45,336 nt of DNA, from assembly GCA_022925895.1 (NCBI GenBank), contig JAKSYS010000516.1, forward strand, positions 1 through 45,336, written 5' to 3'. Of this stretch, positions 26,633-36,784 are shown one piece after another (within the stretch, counting starts at the first letter, position 1; each line of letters opens with the position of its first letter). Origin of the DNA: Fragilaria crotonensis. Taxonomy: Eukaryota; Bacillariophyta; Fragilariophyceae; Fragilariales; Fragilariaceae. The notes below the pieces were generated by a model that worked only from the letters and a program-made list of their open reading frames with translations, did not search any database and was not told the DNA's origin. A program made the translations under genes and the position numbers.

Positions 26633-27714
26633 TCAAGACACGGCCCTCCCAAATCGGCGCAAAACGGCATCGGCTGCCTTTTGCAGCGCTTGTGAGTCTG
26701 ACAAGTCGCCCTCCTTATCTCGCGCTTGGCTTATAGCAGTTGCAGAGTTTGCGACCTCCATGAACTGAAAGCGTCGCTATAGGTGTAAGTGGCAAGTGAT
26801 GCATGCCCGGTGGCGCCGGCGACTGACGAGACACCATTTTCCATGGATTCTGCCAATTCCGTCAGGTCAGCCGCAATTATGTTTTGACTAGACGAACTCG
26901 GCTGCCTCTTTAGCCGTTTTGTTGACCCGACCATCTCTGGTAGCAATCTTCTCTTTTTAAGTCTCACAATCTCATAAAACTTCTTGGCTTCCTTGTATAT
27001 ATCTTCGAATTCTTGTGACTGGACGTTTGCTACCTCCATCAGCATGGGCTTCAATTGATCCATGTGTTTAACTTGATTCTCCTCCATTACTAAACAGAAA
27101 CATGCAGATTCGTACCCTGGCTTCTTACGCTCCATGTCTTGTAGAAACCCGGATCGTTTAAATTTGTCTTTTAATCCCCAAACATGCAGCTGTATGTCCT
27201 TTATCAAATGCTGTGTAAGCTTCGCGAAACCGAAACTGTCTGGAATATGAGACCCTAATTTGATAGAGAGAATGGGGATGATGCTGCTGTTGTCCTTCCC
27301 GGGAAGGGTCTCTGCGGCTTGAGGGCGCGTAAATTTGAATCGAGAAGGCGCGCGCCCACCTCGAGATTGCGGCGCATGCTGTCTGTTCTGTCGTGGGGTA
27401 CTATCCATGTAGTTACCAATTTTTGCCGACATGGACTCAAAATCTTTCTTCTTCATCGTACATATCTTGCTCAGATTTGATTTGATCGCTATGCCATTCC
27501 GACGAAGGATCAAATCAAGCACAATAGCAGCTCGATTCTCGACACTGTCGCCCTTTCCAAGTCCTCCCACCTTGATCTTGATGGCAACCTTACGCAGCGT
27601 CTCTTCGGACGTGATTATGATATCTTTGGTAACCACGGTTCGATCATCGGAAGATATCTTCTCTACTATATTTTCTACAACAGAAGTCGCGGGGCGAGGC
27701 GGCGGTGGTGCCAT
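26633..27714 (-). CDS. ORC6-like origin recognition complex subunit (tentative)
   Basis: The start is taken as the ATG at 27714 (MAPPPPRPATSVVEN); an upstream ATG at 27780 is also in frame. The first ~100 residues (LGKGDSVENRAAIVLDLILR, then AIKSNLSKICTMKKKDFESM) have the layout of the first cyclin-like domain of Orc6. A second such block (KPGYESACFCLVMEENQVKH, then LMEVANVQSQEFEDIYKEA) lies in the C-terminal half, separated by a basic linker (RGGRAPSRFKFTRP). This two-cyclin-box pattern suggests Orc6, which helps load MCM helicase at origins in the nucleus. One base is missing near 26757, after which MEVANSATAISQARD continues to a stop at 26633. A TFIIB-like or other cyclin-fold protein is the main alternative. 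Confidence 0.5.
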
Positions 27715-28157
27715 TGCGATCACTGAACAAAGGGAGCTGGGTGAGATTTTTGTCACATGTGCCGCCTTCAATTGTCGCATCTGCGAGTACTGTACAATTT
27801 ACGTTGCGACATACTGGTAGATCACTTTACATGTATGTGTACCGGTACTATCGGTAGTCTCTGCGAAATACTCCCAGTACACAGTACAGTACAGAATATG
27901 TATATACATGTATGTATAGCAGCACATGTAGAAATGACTCAGGACACTGGTATTGTACCGGCTACGTGTAGACCCTTGTGATTACGGTATGTTGTAGGGA
28001 GTACTGGAATACTATACTTGGCGTACTACAAGTACCAAATCAAATGTGTCCGAAGCTGTTTTGGCCGTTGCTCCGCCGCCATCGGGAAAACTGTTAGATT
28101 CAAACGACGAAACCGATCCTCATTCTTTTCCAACACGACCTCAAAGGATTTCGCGCC
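27715..28157. promoter_or_regulatory. Divergent promoter region, ORC6-like / kinesin
   Basis: 443 bp between two divergent starts, so it must hold both promoters. About nine GTAC words lie in 27830-28040, including ACCGGTAC and CAGTACAGTACAG. No recognisable TATA box. Shared control of a replication-origin gene and a mitotic-spindle gene in the cell cycle is plausible but only inferred from the layout. Confidence 0.4.
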
Positions 28158-31100
28158 ATGACGAAGACGACAACGGCGTCTTCAAGCACAACTCAAGTCC
28201 GCGTCGCGGTCCGAGTGCGACCCTTGACAACTAAGGAGCGAGATTGCAAGGCCGTAGTAGATGTTCGCCCTCCGGCATCCGTAGGAATCGCGGCACGCAC
28301 TTTCACTTACGATTTAGTGTTTGATGCAAGAGTGCCACAAGCTGCGCTGTATGATAAGGTGTCTCCCAATTTGCTCTCTTCATTTCTGGAAGGATATAAT
28401 GCAACTATTATGGCATATGGACAGACCGGATCAGGAAAGACGTTTACCATGGGGAGTGAGGTTCACAGCGCGGACGGTGAAGCTGGTTTGATTCCCCGAT
28501 TCATGACTTCCATCTTTGAATCGTTGGCGGAAAAGAAAGAAGCGCTTGTAGACTTTACTGTTCAAGCTAGTTTTGAAGTCTACGGAGAGGATGTGCATGA
28601 TTTACTTGATCAAGACCGAAAGACGCTTCCGTTACGAGACGATGCGAATGGTGGAGTTGTTGTAGCCGGTTTGACATACCGAGCCATTTCGTCGGCAGAC
28701 GAAGCTCTTGACGTATTGAATCAAGGAACATTAAACCGCACTACCGCTGCGACCTTAATGAATCTCACCAGCAGTCGCTCTCATGCAGTGTTTACGATAT
28801 ACTTATCACAGACAACTCGTGCAGACAACATTGATGTCACCACAACATCTAAGTTTACGTTAGTGGATCTAGCGGGAAGCGAGCGCATGAAAAAGACTGG
28901 AGCAGTCGGCGAGAGAGCTCTTGAAGGAATAAAGATCAATGAGGGTCTCCTAGCACTTGGGAATGTTATCAATGCCCTGGCAGATGAAGAACGTATCTCC
29001 AAGGAGAGGAAGATCCATGTGCCCTATCGTCAGTCAAAGTTGACACGACTCTTACAAGATGCTCTTGGCGGAAATTCTCAGACTCTATTTATTGCTTGTG
29101 TCTCGTCTGCTGACATCAATGTCAGTGAAACTCTATCGACGCTGCACTACGCAAACCGGGCTCGCAACATCAAGAATGCCCTGACAAAAAATGTCGACGG
29201 AGCTGCCTTGGAACTACAACGTTTGCAGGCTCTCAATGCCTTGTACTGCAAAGAATTAGTGCGACACAAATTCGATACTGATGATATGGAGAGCCCTGAG
29301 GTCAGGGAATATTTTGAAGCTTTGCATGATGCGGCTGCTATTGATGACGCCGCTTTCCCCGTTCTGCGGCCCCCAATGGCGGCACTACCAATCGATAAGC
29401 AGGGATTCGGAGAGTCCTCATTTGGCCCTGCATTCTCCGGCGCCACCACAGCAGTCGCTGCAACGCCGTCGAGAACGAATGCTAGTTTCATCGATGACAT
29501 CTTGGATGAGTCAATCTTGGAGGAGGTCAACCCAGCAGAAGAACTTGCAATTCTAGATCAGTTGCTCGAGCTCCAAAACCAGGACCACGAATTCAGCAAG
29601 AAGCACCGACAGAGCCAAGTCGAACTGAAACAAGTTCAGGGAGAGTTAGACGAACAGGAAGCCCTTTTGTTGCAACTACGGGACAGTCTCAAAGTCTATC
29701 ACAACATGAAGGAGAAGTATCAAATGCTGATGGCAGAGGTGCAGCAACTCGAGGTGGAAAAACTGTCGCTTGCTGATCAGCTTGAGAAAGTATCGGTGGA
29801 TCCAACCAAGGGCTGTTCACTGGCTATCAAGAAGAAGTTGGAGCGTGTCGAAGCCAGTCTCGTTGCGTGCCAGAAGCGATACTCGCAAGCACCAGCAGAA
29901 GTATCGCGAAGCTGAACAACAGGCCCAAAAATGCAAAGCCCTGGAACGCAAGATTTCTCAGTTGAAAAAAGATAAGATTTCCATGATCAAGAAGCAGAAA
30001 GAGGACACAATTCGTCATCGCGAGTTTACTGAGCAAAAAACCCGAGAATTGCTTGTTCTGAAAAGAAAAGAACGCACAGCCGGAATGAAAGTAACCAAGT
30101 TGCAAACGCAGATCCAGAACCATAGAAACGACCTTGCGAAACGCAAGCTGTACGCCGAAAAAGTGACGAACAAATTGAAGGAGACGGAAGCTCACTTGAT
30201 GAAACTCTTGTCTATGCGCAGTCGAGAATTACAAAATCGCCATGCGTCTCCTGGGCGTCGCAAGTCCATCCGTGTCCCACTTCTCAATGATGGATTTGCC
30301 ACGAATTCACAGGAATTGGAGTCTATGATGTTTCTCTTGAATCGTTTGGTTGTTGATCGAGTTACGCTCGAACAGACGAGAGTCCAGTATGAAGATCGTG
30401 TTGCTGAGTACAGTGAAATTATGCGAAAGATCAGGGAAGAAGTCAAGGTTCTAGACATAACAAAACAAGGTAGCGACGAGGCTGGCGAACAAGAACAGGT
30501 TGTTGAGGATCTTGAACTGAAGTTGGAAATTGTCAGTGGGGAAATAGAGATGTTGAATGCCAAGGTTGGGACGACTTCCATGACCAACGAAGAATCTGAC
30601 ATTGAGATGAAAGCCAAGCAAACAATTGGAACCCTTAGCGCACCTACAGTCCGTTCACTTCTATGGGATTTTGTTGGAAAGCTAGCTGATTCAGAACTTG
30701 AACGTCAAAGTCAATCCCGATCCATGGAAAAGAAGGATCGTGTTATTGAAAGCTTCGAAGCGGAGGTCAGATCCCTGAATCAACGGGTTGCTCTTCTAAC
30801 AAGCGACCTTGCTGAACGCCGAAAGCTAGCGGCCGGCGATGACGATCCGTTGGAGTTGATTCGCGACCTCAGGAAACAGCTTGAGGCTGCAAACGCGTCG
30901 TTGGGAGAATCAAAGGCGCTATCCCAGGAAAAGGAAAAGTTAACGACTGCCCTCAAGAAGGATCTTGCCACTGCTCGCTTAGAGTTACTTGAAATCAGCG
31001 AAAAGCTAGCGTTGTCGGACACAATCGTTCGCCAACGTTTGGATGATAACACGTCGGAGCGCACCTTGATGTTTTACAAACCCTTTGGAAACGAATGGTG

Positions 31101-33207
31101 TCCCAGACGACCAGCGGAATAAGTCTCGACTTGCCATCATGTCTTGTTTGGACGACACGTGTCAACGCCAAGTCCGCGATGCAAGAAAGCTCAAGCACGA
31201 TACTGAAATGGAGATCAATAGTCTCCGTGAGAAGCTGCGTATGATGTCGCAGGCTCGGAAAGTCCATTGCTTTGGACGATCCTATCGACCAGTCAACTCT
31301 TACGCAAGAACGAGACCAGCTCAAGGCCAGGTCGATCTTGTAACGCCTGAATATGAGAGTATGCTTGATCGTAAACATCGAATCATGAAGAGTGTGCGCA
31401 GTTTGACGCATGCAATGAACATCTCTTTGGAGGACCTTTCTCCCGACCTGAGAATGCTTCTGAGTGACGGTGACAGTGAAGGACAAGTTCCGCGCACAGG
31501 CAAGGATATGCGCGCGTCGATGAGAAAGGGAGTTGAAGGCATACTCCAAGCGTTGGAAGAGGGTTATCCCGTTGACGATCGAATTGTATCAGCAGAAACT
31601 ATTGCAGCTCCAAGATCGCTCCAATCAGAGTTCCTTGATCGATGCGAGCAAGACTTGACAAGCCTTCGAATGCAGAAATCGAGAAAGGCGGTGGCGAACT
31701 CTGACAAACGGAAGGAGGTCCACTCCCTGGTAATGGAAATGCACGTCACCGAAGGTGATATCAATAGCCTTATCTCGACTTCGACTGTTCATCCTATCCC
31801 GAGCTGGTGGGAGAAAGATGTAGCCGCACACGTTGTTGACGTTATTGTGAAAGAAGATGACATGGTCGACGTGTCCCCGATGTTCACACAGCACCTCGAC
31901 CATATCTGTGCAGTTCTAACGCTAGTGTCGGAACAACGAAAGAAATTATCAACTGCGCTGAAGGACGCTATCGATCGAGCTCAGAGGACGCTGTTGTCCA
32001 CAGTTGGCGAAGAGGTGGATGCAAGCGAAGCGTATGCTAGCTTTCACGAAGCCTTGTTCAATCTTCCAACCCTTTCGAAGGAACATATACAAACGTGTAT
32101 CGAGGAAATCAATGCACTTACGGCCGGAGTCGAAGTCATGACACAAAGCGAAATCGAGGCCCTTACAGTTGTGTGGGAAGCCCTTCACATCACGACGAAA
32201 GAAAAAGGAAATTTTTGGGGCGACATCGAGGATTTTTCCAAGGTTGCTGGATCCAAGGAAAAATCAATGTTCGAATCAATCCAGTCTTCGTCAGAAGAAT
32301 GGGTTTCGGAGGCCGTGAAAGAAGCATCAACTGCCTACCAATTACTAAGCACTCGCCTTCACAAGCTCGAGCAGATACACCTTGAGGTCGAGAAACTTCG
32401 TTCAAAACAGGATGCCAAAAGTCTGATCATTTCACTTGACTCTGAAATAAGGATCTTGACCTCAAGTCTTGCTGAATTTGAGGACAAGAAGTGCCACAAG
32501 CAGCGACTTTTGACAAAGAAAGCCAGAAGCTCAACTCTCTTGCGAGAGGAACGCTTTCGAAACAAATGCAAGGAAAGTTTGCGACTAAGTTACATCAACT
32601 CAAAGCTGCAGTAAAGTCTTGGAAAGAAAGCGATGGCGATGATTTTGAAGACGACGTGCTAAGCGAAGAAGTTCGCATGCTCCTTGACAACCCTGACAAA
32701 ATGGATACGCTAGTGAAAAAGCGCACAGGCTTCATGCACCTTCGCACAGTTCAGACAAAAGTGCCATTGGGAAAAAGGGCAGCCCTACATTTGACACCAG
32801 TGTCAGAGTCTCCTGTTGTGAAGAAACAACGATCAAGCGAGAATTCGTCGGAAGGGTCGACGGGTAGTGTTGGAAGTAACAATAGCGTTCATGGATCGAG
32901 AACGGTTCCAACTCGAGAGGCGCTCAATTCCAGCAGACCAGGGGTCGAGAATCGACCACCATCCGCATCGAGCTCCTCCAACTCCAGGAAACGAAAGCCA
33001 GAGACCACGCAGACACGAAGCCCAACTAAAATGAGATCGAGAGGCCGAAATGGAACTTCGAATAGCCCACTCGCGTCGCAAGGTGGGACTGCATCCATTA
33101 AGCGAAAGAAAACGGACCTGCACATTGCAAAACGAGGCTCTATGATGCCCTTTGGAAACGTTCTCGGAGGCGACGACTCCCCTGATGGAAACAGCACGAT
33201 TCCATAG
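28158..33207 (+). CDS. Kinesin-4 motor fused to MAP65/Ase1/PRC1-type module
   Basis: About 1,680 residues from the ATG at 28158. The motor (residues ~13-345) has GQTGSGKT (88-95), SSRSH (205-209), LVDLAGSE (235-242) and kinesin-4 hallmarks KKTGAVGERALEGIKINEG and YRQSKLTRLLQDALGGNSQT. A KIF4-like coiled coil follows (QKYREAEQQAQKCKALERKI). From about 31067 MAP65-family blocks appear in order: LDVLQTLWKRM, GVPDDQRNKSR, LDDPIDQSTLTQERDQLK, CEQDLTSLRMQKSRKAV, VVWEALHITTKEKGNFW, and LLREERFRNK joined to LHQLKAAVKSWKES. A basic Ser-rich tail with TPVSESP ends the protein. Six frame changes of one base each (about 29878, 31063, 31097, 31268, 31343, 32573) must be crossed, and homology is continuous through each. 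Kinesin-4 and PRC1 normally cooperate at antiparallel spindle overlaps. The gene ends 38 bp from the convergent PP2C gene. Confidence 0.82.
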
Positions 33208-33245: not shown

Positions 33246-34712
33246 CTATTGATTCAATGGTTTTAACCAAACTATCACAACACAAATGTTGTCTCCACTT
33301 CCTCGATTCAAAGCCTCAGAAGCAATATAACGTGACATGTTCTTTCGTCTCACATCCTGCATTCTTCGCGCAATCTTGTATCCTTCGCTGCCGGGCTCGA
33401 GGGACCCACTCGGCTTGACGGCCTCCATTTTCCGATGAACGAATTGCACAACTTGCTCCGAGGTCATGACATCCCACACACCATCAGATGCAAGAACAAT
33501 GAACTCATCATCCTCCCTTAGCGGGAAAAGTTGAATTTCTGCCTCGCCGCTAACAGTGGGTTTCGCAAAACGATCGCCAATGGCTCGCGACAAGGATAAA
33601 TTCTTGACTCGGTGAATCTTGCCATAATTATCCTCGATTTGCTCACCCATGTTCTCGATCCTCGCCCGCTCCTGTTCATCACCGGGTTTGTGATCTCGAG
33701 TCATATCTACCGCCATTCCACGACGACACAGCACTGCCCGACTATCGCCAACATTCGCCGACACCAGAGTTTTCGATCCATCTTCCCCTTCATGAATGGC
33801 TACCGCCAGCCGTGGATCCCTGATATTGCATCGCATCCTTGCCCAGCACTTCCGCATCGATCGACAGAAACGCCGCACGCAGCGCCATGACGAGCGAGTG
33901 GAGAGAGAATGTTCCATTTCCCACGACGTGCGTTTCCACTCGCGCTGAAAGCGTTGGTACAAGTGATGGCGCAAGTGTCGTGACACGTCGCTCCCACCGT
34001 GTCCATCAAAGACTCCCACAAACTTTCCGCCGTTTCCGATGAAGTAATCATCTTCCATGTAAAGACGGCCGCCTTGAATGGCGCGGACAGAAACCTATGG
34101 GATAGGAAAGAGACAAGGCGTAGCGTGAGCAAGGAGCAGTGCACGCGTGAAAAGAGAGAATACACAAAACGCGGAAGGACACGAGTTCAACAAGACATTA
34201 GGACTTACATCAAACGAGGTGCCGCCTTCACTGTTTGTTGCAACCGTAGGTTCTTCCTCATCGTCGTGCTCCTGAGCACGCTTGGACCCCAACAACAGAG
34301 TTTTTCCCTGAAAAGGGGGCAAGGAGCTCCCACCACCTCCACCTCCCCACGAAGCGAATCCAAACTCTGAGGATGGCGTTGGTCCACCCATGCTACTGGT
34401 TGTGTAGCAAATGGCCGCACCACTGACAAAGGCTGCCACAACGGAAGATGCGAGGAGTTCCCATGATGACCACCATAGCGAAGTGTCGGTGTCGTGAAGT
34501 GTTGACGATGCGCAGCGTAGTACACCGTTTGACGGAAGTGCGACGGCTTGATTGGGAATAGAATCCTGTAGTGCTGCAAATGAAGGAAGCGACAAAATGC
34601 TGTAACTTCTTGTTGCTCGAACAGAATCATCCAAAGTTGCGTATGATCTCTTTGCTAGGATGGCAACCAATCGAGATGAGGATGTCACGGACAGGCTTTG
34701 TGCTATCATCAT
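33246..34712 (-). CDS. PP2C-type protein phosphatase with N-terminal membrane or targeting segment
   Basis: A metal-dependent Ser/Thr phosphatase. Exon 1 (34712-34209) encodes ~168 residues: a Ser/Arg-rich start (MMIAQSLSVTSSSRLVAI), a hydrophobic helix (LLASSVVAAFVSGAAI) and a Gly-rich linker. This suggests mitochondrial targeting with an inner-membrane anchor, or a signal anchor. The intron 34095-34208 (114 nt, GT-AG) is phase 0. Exon 2 holds the whole PPM domain: GGRLYMEDDYF, FVGVFDGHGG, SANVGDSRAVL, LSLSRAIGDRFAKP, FIVLASDGVWDV and GSGDNICVV, which carry the Asp metal ligands. Two compensating one-base changes near 33935 and 33815 put MALRAAFLSIDAEVL in a different frame; with them the domain is complete. 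Confidence 0.88.
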
Positions 34713-36784
34713 GCTGAATTAGCAGGATATCGTTCCAGGTTCCTTGATCCAAGTAGCCGCTGCTGATAGACTGGTAACTGGTAGTACGATGTTCGAATAC
34801 AAGATTGATCTCAACAGGACGGCGATAGACGTCAAGACTCAAATAACTGTGAAAGCTCAAAGATCGAGGAAGAATTAATGATGTAATGGAGCACTCCTAG
34901 TCTCACACGCTCACTCTCGCGTTGATCAGCTACACCAATACGAGTTGCACAAGAGTTCTTTGTTATGGCAGGTCGGAAATGCGAGATACGATATGCGATC
35001 ACCAAAGATGAGATGTTCAACTATCCTCCAGTATTCTGACTTGTGACGCTCGGTGTACGTTGCTAAGAACTTAAGAATATGCATGTGCAGTACACAGAAC
35101 ACACAAACAACCAGAACTTGAGATTTGAGATCCTCCGGAACACCCGCGTCAAAGGCTGGATCGTTTTAAAGCTTTCTCACGAACTCTGGCCTCTGACACG
35201 CTTCTGGAGGTTAGTGGTAAGCCCCACTCAGAATGGATGGAACTTGGAGTACCTGGTACGATAATGACATCAGGATGACGTCCTTGTGTTTCGCAGTGAC
35301 AGCGTGACAGCTATCGAGAAAACTCTTCGTATGACATTTCATACGTCCACTCTATCACTATATACTAGCATGCATACACTACTAGTTGTATGAGAATAGG
35401 GTCTTCTACAGTACTGGAGTACTATGCATATTGAAATTGAGTGGAGGTGTCAATATTACTACAAGGGCCAGTACCGGTACATGAAGCATATCTTCCAGAG
35501 TTTAGGGATAAAGATGAAGTCAGTACAGTAGATGTATGATGCACTCTACTCCGAGTATTCTTTTAGAGACCAGTAGCTTTCACTCCCAGAACTCAGAACC
35601 GATTCTGAGTCAAAGCTACAGTACTGTAGCGGTAGAGTAAAAGGATTCTTACTCAACAGTACTAGTACTTGCTAATTGCACTATACACTATACAGTAACC
35701 GAAATTTGCCGAATTTCGCCTACAGTACCTGCCTTAGCTTGCTTATCATCGACGTGTTCCTTTCATCATAATTGAACTCCGCGAGGACCATCATTTTAGT
35801 GCCGCAGCTCCTCAAGACCACACAGTTGCTAGTACAAAAAAGGCTTCAATCCTCAGCAGAAGAAATCCAATCATCTGCATAGAACAAACAGCATGCAACA
35901 CAATGAGAGGGTCTGAAATGATTGCTGAATCCAACATGGAACAAGGGACATAACTTCAGATTTAAAATTTTGTCATCTTGCTGTTGTTAGGATAACAGAG
36001 GTGGCTGCATGCAAGGTTTGGCTCCTGCGAAAGGTAGTTTTCTTTACGGTCAACGAATTGCATTTGTGATGAGACTCGAGTTTTGCTGCCAAGACTTGAA
36101 CAAATCAGGAACCAACCTCAACATTGACATCTCAACAATGGTAAAACTTCAGACTAGTTCTTGAGTTCAAGACTTGTCAAATTCATATAAGTGGTTACAA
36201 TGATATAAACAAGATGTGCTGGCTGTGCAAAGTTTGGTTGCACAAGATGAGAGTCTTCACTGTCAAAGAAATCAAGTATTTCTGACAAGACTTTATCAAA
36301 TTAGAAACCAGCATCAACATTGATATCTCAACAAAGCAATACATAAGACTATTAGACAACTTTGCCAGAGAATACTTGTTGGTTACGTCCTCAACAAGCC
36401 ATATGCGAAGCATGGTTCTTGTAAATACTTCCGTAGACACTTCAGTACTGGGGCATCTAGGGCATAGCCCGTTTCCACCACGAGCTCCTGGTTCCTAACT
36501 CAAACCCTGTCACAACGTCACGACATACGTGGTATACATACTTGTAGAACATGAATGTCATACTCCCGAACCCGTGCGTGGCAGGAGGGCAACTGGATCC
36601 AACAAGACAACAGGACACAGCCCAAACCGCATCATTTCAGTCACATCCACGTATCGATAGTAATCATATCCACATATCTACGACTACTACACAGCGAAAC
36701 AGGGTTAACTGCAAAGCTGCAAAGCCACTGTTTTTGCTTTGATTGTACCGACGACTTGCATCTGAAAACAAACGAACGCGCACC
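34713..36784. other. 2-kb intergenic region without a gene
   Basis: Divergent spacer between PP2C and metacaspase. No supportable reading frame. GTAC words are dense from 35240 to 35740. A diverged ~195-bp direct duplication occupies 36005-36400. The last 250 bp before the metacaspase ATG have no assignable promoter element. Confidence 0.45.
36005..36400. repeat. Diverged ~195-bp tandem duplication, two copies
   Basis: TGCAAGGTTTGG near 36010 pairs with TGCAAAGTTTGG near 36218. CATTGACATCTCAACAA near 36122 pairs with CATTGATATCTCAACAA near 36317. The intervening DNA aligns loosely. Function unknown. Confidence 0.55.

Follow-up and report, generated by a model that had tools for sequence, protein, structure and literature searches.

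In animals, the C-terminus of the kinesin-4 motor Kif4A is thought to bind the N-terminus of the microtubule crosslinker PRC1 with a dissociation constant (Kd) of 0.3 μM, and this link has been called loose (PMC6200392). The docking site on PRC1 includes I25, W26, M54, E57, and E58, which were chosen from a predicted structure and the last three of which were mutated; the KIF4A tail carries the FF pairs that dock to PRC1 (PMC10620760). Overlap length in vitro is set by the PRC1/KIF4A ratio (PMC6616649). Diatom spindles have been isolated and reactivated in vitro for studies of anaphase B (PMC5192431). Here, we describe a gene of the diatom Fragilaria crotonensis that appears to encode a kinesin-4 and a member of the MAP65/Ase1/PRC1 family in one polypeptide. 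It is located in a 45,336-nt stretch of contig JAKSYS010000516.1 (positions 1–45,336, forward strand), referred to below as the window.

Our best explanation, to which we assign a probability of roughly 65% with its inferred mechanism included, is that window positions 28158–33207 are a single, apparently intronless gene for one chain composed of a kinesin-4–type motor, a kinesin-4–type coiled coil, and a divergent MAP65/Ase1/PRC1 part at the place where a kinesin-4 tail would sit. Taken by itself, the existence of one fused gene is very probable from the DNA. The evidence read directly comprises the domains and their order, an open frame shared by both halves in one copy, a coding signal over the join, and separate kinesin-4 and MAP65 genes in the same genome. 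In the window, the gene is broken into four frames (motor, 28098–29915; coil, 29731–31122; third, 31070–32614; and fourth, 32482–33207). A search of the gene DNA against its own genome revealed a second, nearly identical copy on another contig (C183:17177–22232), in which one 720-codon frame without a stop links the kinesin coil to the MAP65 part, taking in the block TLDVLQTLWKRIGVPDDQR and, further on, LLREERFRKQMQGKF...W. The parts of the gene, in window coordinates, are as follows:

28158–33207, + strand: whole fusion gene from ATG to stop; 1685 codons, encoding 1685 residues, when the window and C183 copies are read together
28278–29171, + strand: kinesin motor domain (Pfam match PF00225), with the motifs GQTGSGKT, SSRSH, and DLAGSE located
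29574–30072, + strand: KIF21A-like (kinesin-4) coiled-coil domain PF25764, which clears its cut-off when C183 or the composite is scanned and misses it in the raw window frame; positions calculated from the composite
30073–31062, + strand: additional coil-like stretch of the kinesin half, with a positive coding signal along its whole length
30718–30720, + strand: CGA (Arg) in the window, TGA stop in C183; within the 114 codons that precede LDVLQ, Met is encoded once, by the in-frame ATG at 30724
31060–31411, + strand: MAP65/PRC1 N-terminal (dimerisation-end) block, PF03999 profile positions 2–122; the window frame breaks here and C183 is free of these breaks; coordinates converted from L010
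31412–32263, + strand: central region of the MAP65-like part, with weak conservation; a low-confidence model shows it as mostly helical
32264–32646, + strand: MAP65 microtubule-binding block with LLREERFR...W, PF03999 profile positions 319–414; coordinates converted from L010
32647–33207, + strand: Ser/Arg/Lys-rich tail, probably disordered, with S/T-P sites such as RSPTK

We take GQTGSGKT, SSRSH, and DLAGSE to be motor motifs, the microtubule-binding block to be the one named "spectrin-like," and the tail to resemble those of PRC1 proteins.

The motor was recognized beyond question. In a Pfam profile scan, PF00225 matched window positions 28158–29915 with an E value of 7.2e-101, and the nucleotide motifs are present in the N-terminal motor domain. 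When the motor was compared with solved structures (best 60 of 154 matches), KIF4 ranked first with 280.8 bits, followed by 7x4n, named only "Kinesin-like protein," with 267.7 bits; OSM-3 (257 bits) and KIF7 (254.8 bits), which we assume to be a kinesin-2 and a kinesin-4, respectively, were found lower. On this best-match rather than tree basis, the motor appears closest to kinesin-4 among solved kinesins. The coil domain PF25764 (KIF21A_4th, cut-off 33.1 bits) scored 42.2 bits in the C183 copy, 41.7 bits in the composite, and 21.3 bits in the raw window frame. The nearest other motors in the genome are located on C146 (267 bits) and C240 (245 bits), and the coil of the fusion matched that of the C146 kinesin-4 (BLASTP E value of 8.5e-5). 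The 720-codon frame on C240 carried no MAP65-like block when its translation was inspected by eye; no profile scan was made of it. A Cys-rich stretch is a feature of the KIF4A tail, though of KIF4A rather than of the whole kinesin-4 family. No KIF4A-type tail was found in the fusion: it has no Cys cluster, F/Y/W pairs are lacking from residue 388 up to the MAP65 part, and the MAP65-like part stands in place of the tail.

A MAP65_ASE1 match was obtained with the C183 copy. Its 720-codon frame passed the 26.9-bit cut-off of MAP65_ASE1 narrowly, with 27.7 bits in three stretches; the MAP65 part alone, 608 residues running to the frame's end, reached 33.6 bits (E value of 2.4e-8), again in three stretches. 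The located stretches keep the order of the profile, positions 2–122 being followed by 319–414 (the latter containing 357–414). Control versions of the 720-residue frame, one reversed (E ≤ 10) and one shuffled (E ≤ 1), gave no MAP65 match. When aligned to human PRC1, the N-terminal block scored 78, a value equaled by none of 2000 shuffles (highest, 76), and the C-terminal block scored 64 (3 of 2000 shuffles); a control taken from the kinesin coil scored 52 (57 of 2000). A genome search with the MAP65 part yielded four matches, all at the two copies of this locus (one on C466 and three on C183). A preliminary description of this stretch, made from its letters alone, had proposed that a kinesin-4 motor and coil run into MAP65-family blocks at 28158–33207; this observation holds. 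The coordinates were right, the PF00225 match bears out the motor, and the narrow MAP65_ASE1 pass in C183 lends support to the MAP65 part. It had also expected a MAP65_ASE1 match from 31067–32640. Here, the raw window frames (31070–32614 and 32482–33207) gave no MAP65_ASE1 match even at E ≤ 10, which alone would count against a fusion, while the C183 frame passes. The likely reason is that the window frame breaks at the N- and C-terminal blocks.

Several results weigh against a MAP65 identity. Shorter cuts of the MAP65 part stayed below the cut-off (21.5 bits for 495 residues, 22.2 bits for 489, and 16.8 bits for 160). The full-length composite matched kinesin, Microtub_bd, and KIF21A_4th and gave no MAP65_ASE1 match at E ≤ 1. 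A whole-genome search with PF03999 returned a single match, the separate MAP65 gene on C166, and not the fusion locus; searches of this genome may miss weak matches. Identity in the blocks is low (18 to 20% in the N-terminal and 19 to 22% in the C-terminal one). Pairwise comparison with the C166 MAP65 gave a best E value of 0.03 in BLAST, which is noise level, and nothing in hhalign; these comparisons and an hhalign run with the C146 kinesin-4 coil were too weak for use. Solved-structure searches with the MAP65 part returned two weak matches each, with unrelated names and no PRC1 among them. An AlphaFold2 model of this part, built without an alignment, had a mean pLDDT of 45.7 and was not used.

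An alternative is a true fusion in which the MAP65 part has diverged so far that it no longer crosslinks antiparallel microtubules and functions only as a stalk or a cargo end. Besides the full-length scan without MAP65, the ~20% identity of the conserved blocks and the weakly conserved middle favor such divergence. However, the N-terminal and C-terminal blocks are both kept and in order, and the positions aligned to R377 and K387 of PRC1, which we take to be microtubule-binding positions (we found no paper on this point), read R and R in the fusion. We therefore consider a loss of crosslinking unlikely, although it is the strongest of the alternatives, and prefer the reading in which the MAP65 end of the fusion would crosslink antiparallel microtubules as a dimer.

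The coding signal is continuous over the join. A codon-preference score, based on a codon table trained on the separate kinesin-4 (C146) and MAP65 (C166) genes, was positive in every one of the 35 windows slid along the C183 frame (0.11 to 0.50), including the two over the kinesin/MAP65 junction (0.48 and 0.32); the other two frames did not exceed 0.05. Among 12 control windows upstream of the gene, ten were negative and the remaining two scored 0.01 and 0.23, the last of which tells against the score: it distinguishes the frame well and is an imperfect test of coding. The Met nearest upstream of LDVLQ (residue 971) is residue 857, 114 residues before it and within the coil, and the next, Met 996, lies 25 residues inside the MAP65 block. 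The earlier claim that the MAP65 homology starts before any usable ATG was thus nearly right.

An arrangement of two adjacent genes, with a kinesin-4 ending near 30718, a MAP65-like gene starting from the ATG at 30724, and an erroneous base in the window, would fit the C183 copy, in which a stop would split the reading, a point against a single frame: C183 reads TGA at 30718, about 115 codons before the MAP65 start, and the in-frame ATG 3 bases further on is the second codon of its 720-codon frame. However, a 3-base gap leaves no room for a terminator and a promoter, and the codon score marks the stretch of some 115 codons ahead of the MAP65 block as coding, in the same frame. The window itself reads CGA. 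Broken paralogous fragments of the coil on C39 and C380 both have C, not T, at the equivalent position, which suggests, without proving it, that the T in C183 is an error or a derived allele. Two adjacent genes are accordingly quite improbable. The preliminary claim of a single fused gene finds support at the DNA level in the C183 copy, which is open across the join, and is qualified by the TGA in that same copy.

The paralogous coil fragments correspond to window 30679–31062 at 77% DNA identity (L004 1501–1901, C39:6824–7224) and to window 30679–31026 at 72% (L005 1501–1841, C380:13626–13966). They sit in a repeated element of about 1.5 kb, and the longer homology ends at 31062, adjoining the MAP65 start. 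This boundary is either a chance limit of capture or the mark of a source kinesin-4 without MAP65. We rejected the fragments as further copies of the fusion, since they are broken and show no homology past window position 31062 above that of shuffles.

A decaying pseudogene, in which the frameshifts and the stop are real, would also explain the state of the two copies. Over the gene, the copies are separated by 3 substitutions and by 11 indels, of which 10 are frame-changing, and neither assembled copy carries the whole frame intact from end to end, a further point against the reading of one functional chain. Nonetheless, at each of the 11 indel sites one of the copies keeps the long reading open. 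In composites that take either the window or the C183 form at each of these sites and keep the window base at the three substituted ones, 4 of 2048 combinations gave 1683 to 1685 codons from the ATG at 28158 and 8 gave at least 1675. The indel rate in the fusion (11 events, 2.18 per kb) was similar to those in the gene at 26731–27798 (3 events, 2.81 per kb) and in the phosphatase gene at 33246–34094 (3 events, 3.53 per kb), although these counts are small; the indels of the fusion therefore look like assembly errors. With the coding score positive all along the C183 frame as well, we regard a pseudogene as improbable to the same degree as two genes. A chimera of two loci, conceivable in a noisy assembly, is the least credible explanation, given that two contigs share the junction although their sequences diverge at other places (22 substitutions in 34095–35429 and about 1.7 kb extra in C183). 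Inside the gene these contigs are almost the same, however, and may share reads.

The substitution rate between the window and C183 is about 0.6 per kb within the gene and 16 per kb downstream of it (34095–35429); this jump gives the contigs the look of a mosaic, near-identical in some stretches and diverged in others. The divergent neighbor at window 26731–27798 (− strand; L010 55–1218) gave a weak match to ORC6_2nd (14.8 bits, E value of 0.042, cut-off 27); it is possibly an ORC6-like gene that shares its upstream region with the fusion. Elsewhere in the genome, 19 silicon-transporter matches were found, 18 of them over the family cut-off, which supports its diatom origin, and tandem silicon transporter domains occur in single open frames, three in a frame of 1456 codons and two in one of 1008 (G000, C97:29749–33762 and C771:21664–24330). 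Relatives of the fusion were also sought in a collection of prokaryote contigs (17 pattern matches, none confirmed) and in viral contigs (2 matches, none confirmed), which are uninformative on diatoms.

The genome also encodes the two partners separately. A kinesin-4 on C146 has a 1567-codon frame that matched PF00225 (343.7 bits) and KIF21A_4th (95.7 bits), with KIF4 as its best solved relative, and gave no MAP65 match at E ≤ 1. Its tail contains FF at position 1366 of 1567 and no Cys cluster; the motif VFERL occurs four times in this tail (L013 residues 1305, 1397, 1477, and 1544). The MAP65 on C166 has 604 residues, scored 210.9 bits, and has PRC1 as its best solved relative; a genome search with it (E ≤ 1) returned one match, itself. 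We therefore rejected the idea that the fusion replaces the separate genes: it adds to an ordinary kinesin-4/MAP65 pair. The stand-alone kinesin-4 and PRC1, whose absence had been proposed as a check, are both present here, and their presence weakens the earlier suggestion that the fusion fixes the ratio of motor to crosslinker and removes recruitment control.

If the whole chain is translated and dimerizes, the motor would walk toward plus ends with the MAP65 end gripping antiparallel microtubules, and the crosslinker would thus be carried along and locked to the motor at 1:1. The fusion may act in this way at the central overlap of the diatom spindle, alongside the ordinary kinesin-4/MAP65 pair. 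Since it covalently joins the same two ends that meet in Kif4A-PRC1 docking, it should act as a permanently docked complex, which would couple steps to sliding more tightly. At the PRC1 docking positions (numbered by placing W26 in the alignment), the residues are L, W, Q, D, and A in the fusion and V, W, K, E, and E in the MAP65 on C166; as weak evidence, those of the fusion would fit a docking site that is no longer needed. We tentatively suggest, at somewhat less than even odds, that the fusion is a covalent kinesin-4–PRC1 overlap regulator of fixed 1:1 composition that bypasses regulated recruitment beside the ordinary tunable pair.

In the accessible parts of the literature on diatom and stramenopile kinesins and spindles, on kinesin-4–PRC1 overlaps, and on the evolution of kinesin domains, we found no description of a kinesin-4/MAP65 fusion. 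A kinesin survey of photosynthetic eukaryotes that included one diatom does not mention MAP65 in its main text, and most of its diatom kinesins were short, possibly as a result of poor gene models (PMC1434745). A survey of 45 genomes recorded 105 domain architectures, the full list of which is in its supplement, and neither "PRC1" nor "diatom" appears in its main text (PMC2867816). A Kinesin+MAP65 architecture may already be present, unremarked, in protein databases. Since the MAP65 match was lost in the full-length scan, similar fusions in other species may have escaped notice; if our reading is true, full-length domain scans can overlook a crosslinker fused behind coiled coils. The fusion is a named candidate for the diatom central spindle. 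If expressed as one chain, it would be an experiment made by nature on how the extent of the central overlap is controlled in cells and, its link being covalent, would offer a direct way to learn whether recruitment control and an adjustable ratio are necessary.

Compared with the kinesin-4 proteins KIF4A and KIF21A, the fusion has a similar N-terminal motor, with KIF4 as its best solved match, and a KIF21A-like coil. It differs in its MAP65-like C-terminus and in having no pair of aromatic residues from position 388 up to that C-terminus, whereas the C146 kinesin-4 has FF at 1366. In common with MAP65/Ase1/PRC1 proteins, it keeps the N-terminal and microtubule-binding blocks in profile order and a basic, S/T-P-rich tail; unlike them, its block has no adjacent start codon of its own, its N-terminus is continuous with a kinesin coil, identity is low, and E57/E58 are replaced by D/A. 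As in the PRC1-KIF4A system of the animal midzone, the same two partners are involved and the same ends meet, the C-terminus of Kif4A and the N-terminus of PRC1; the link that there is a loose complex with a Kd of 0.3 μM (PMC6200392) would in the fusion be covalent and 1:1.

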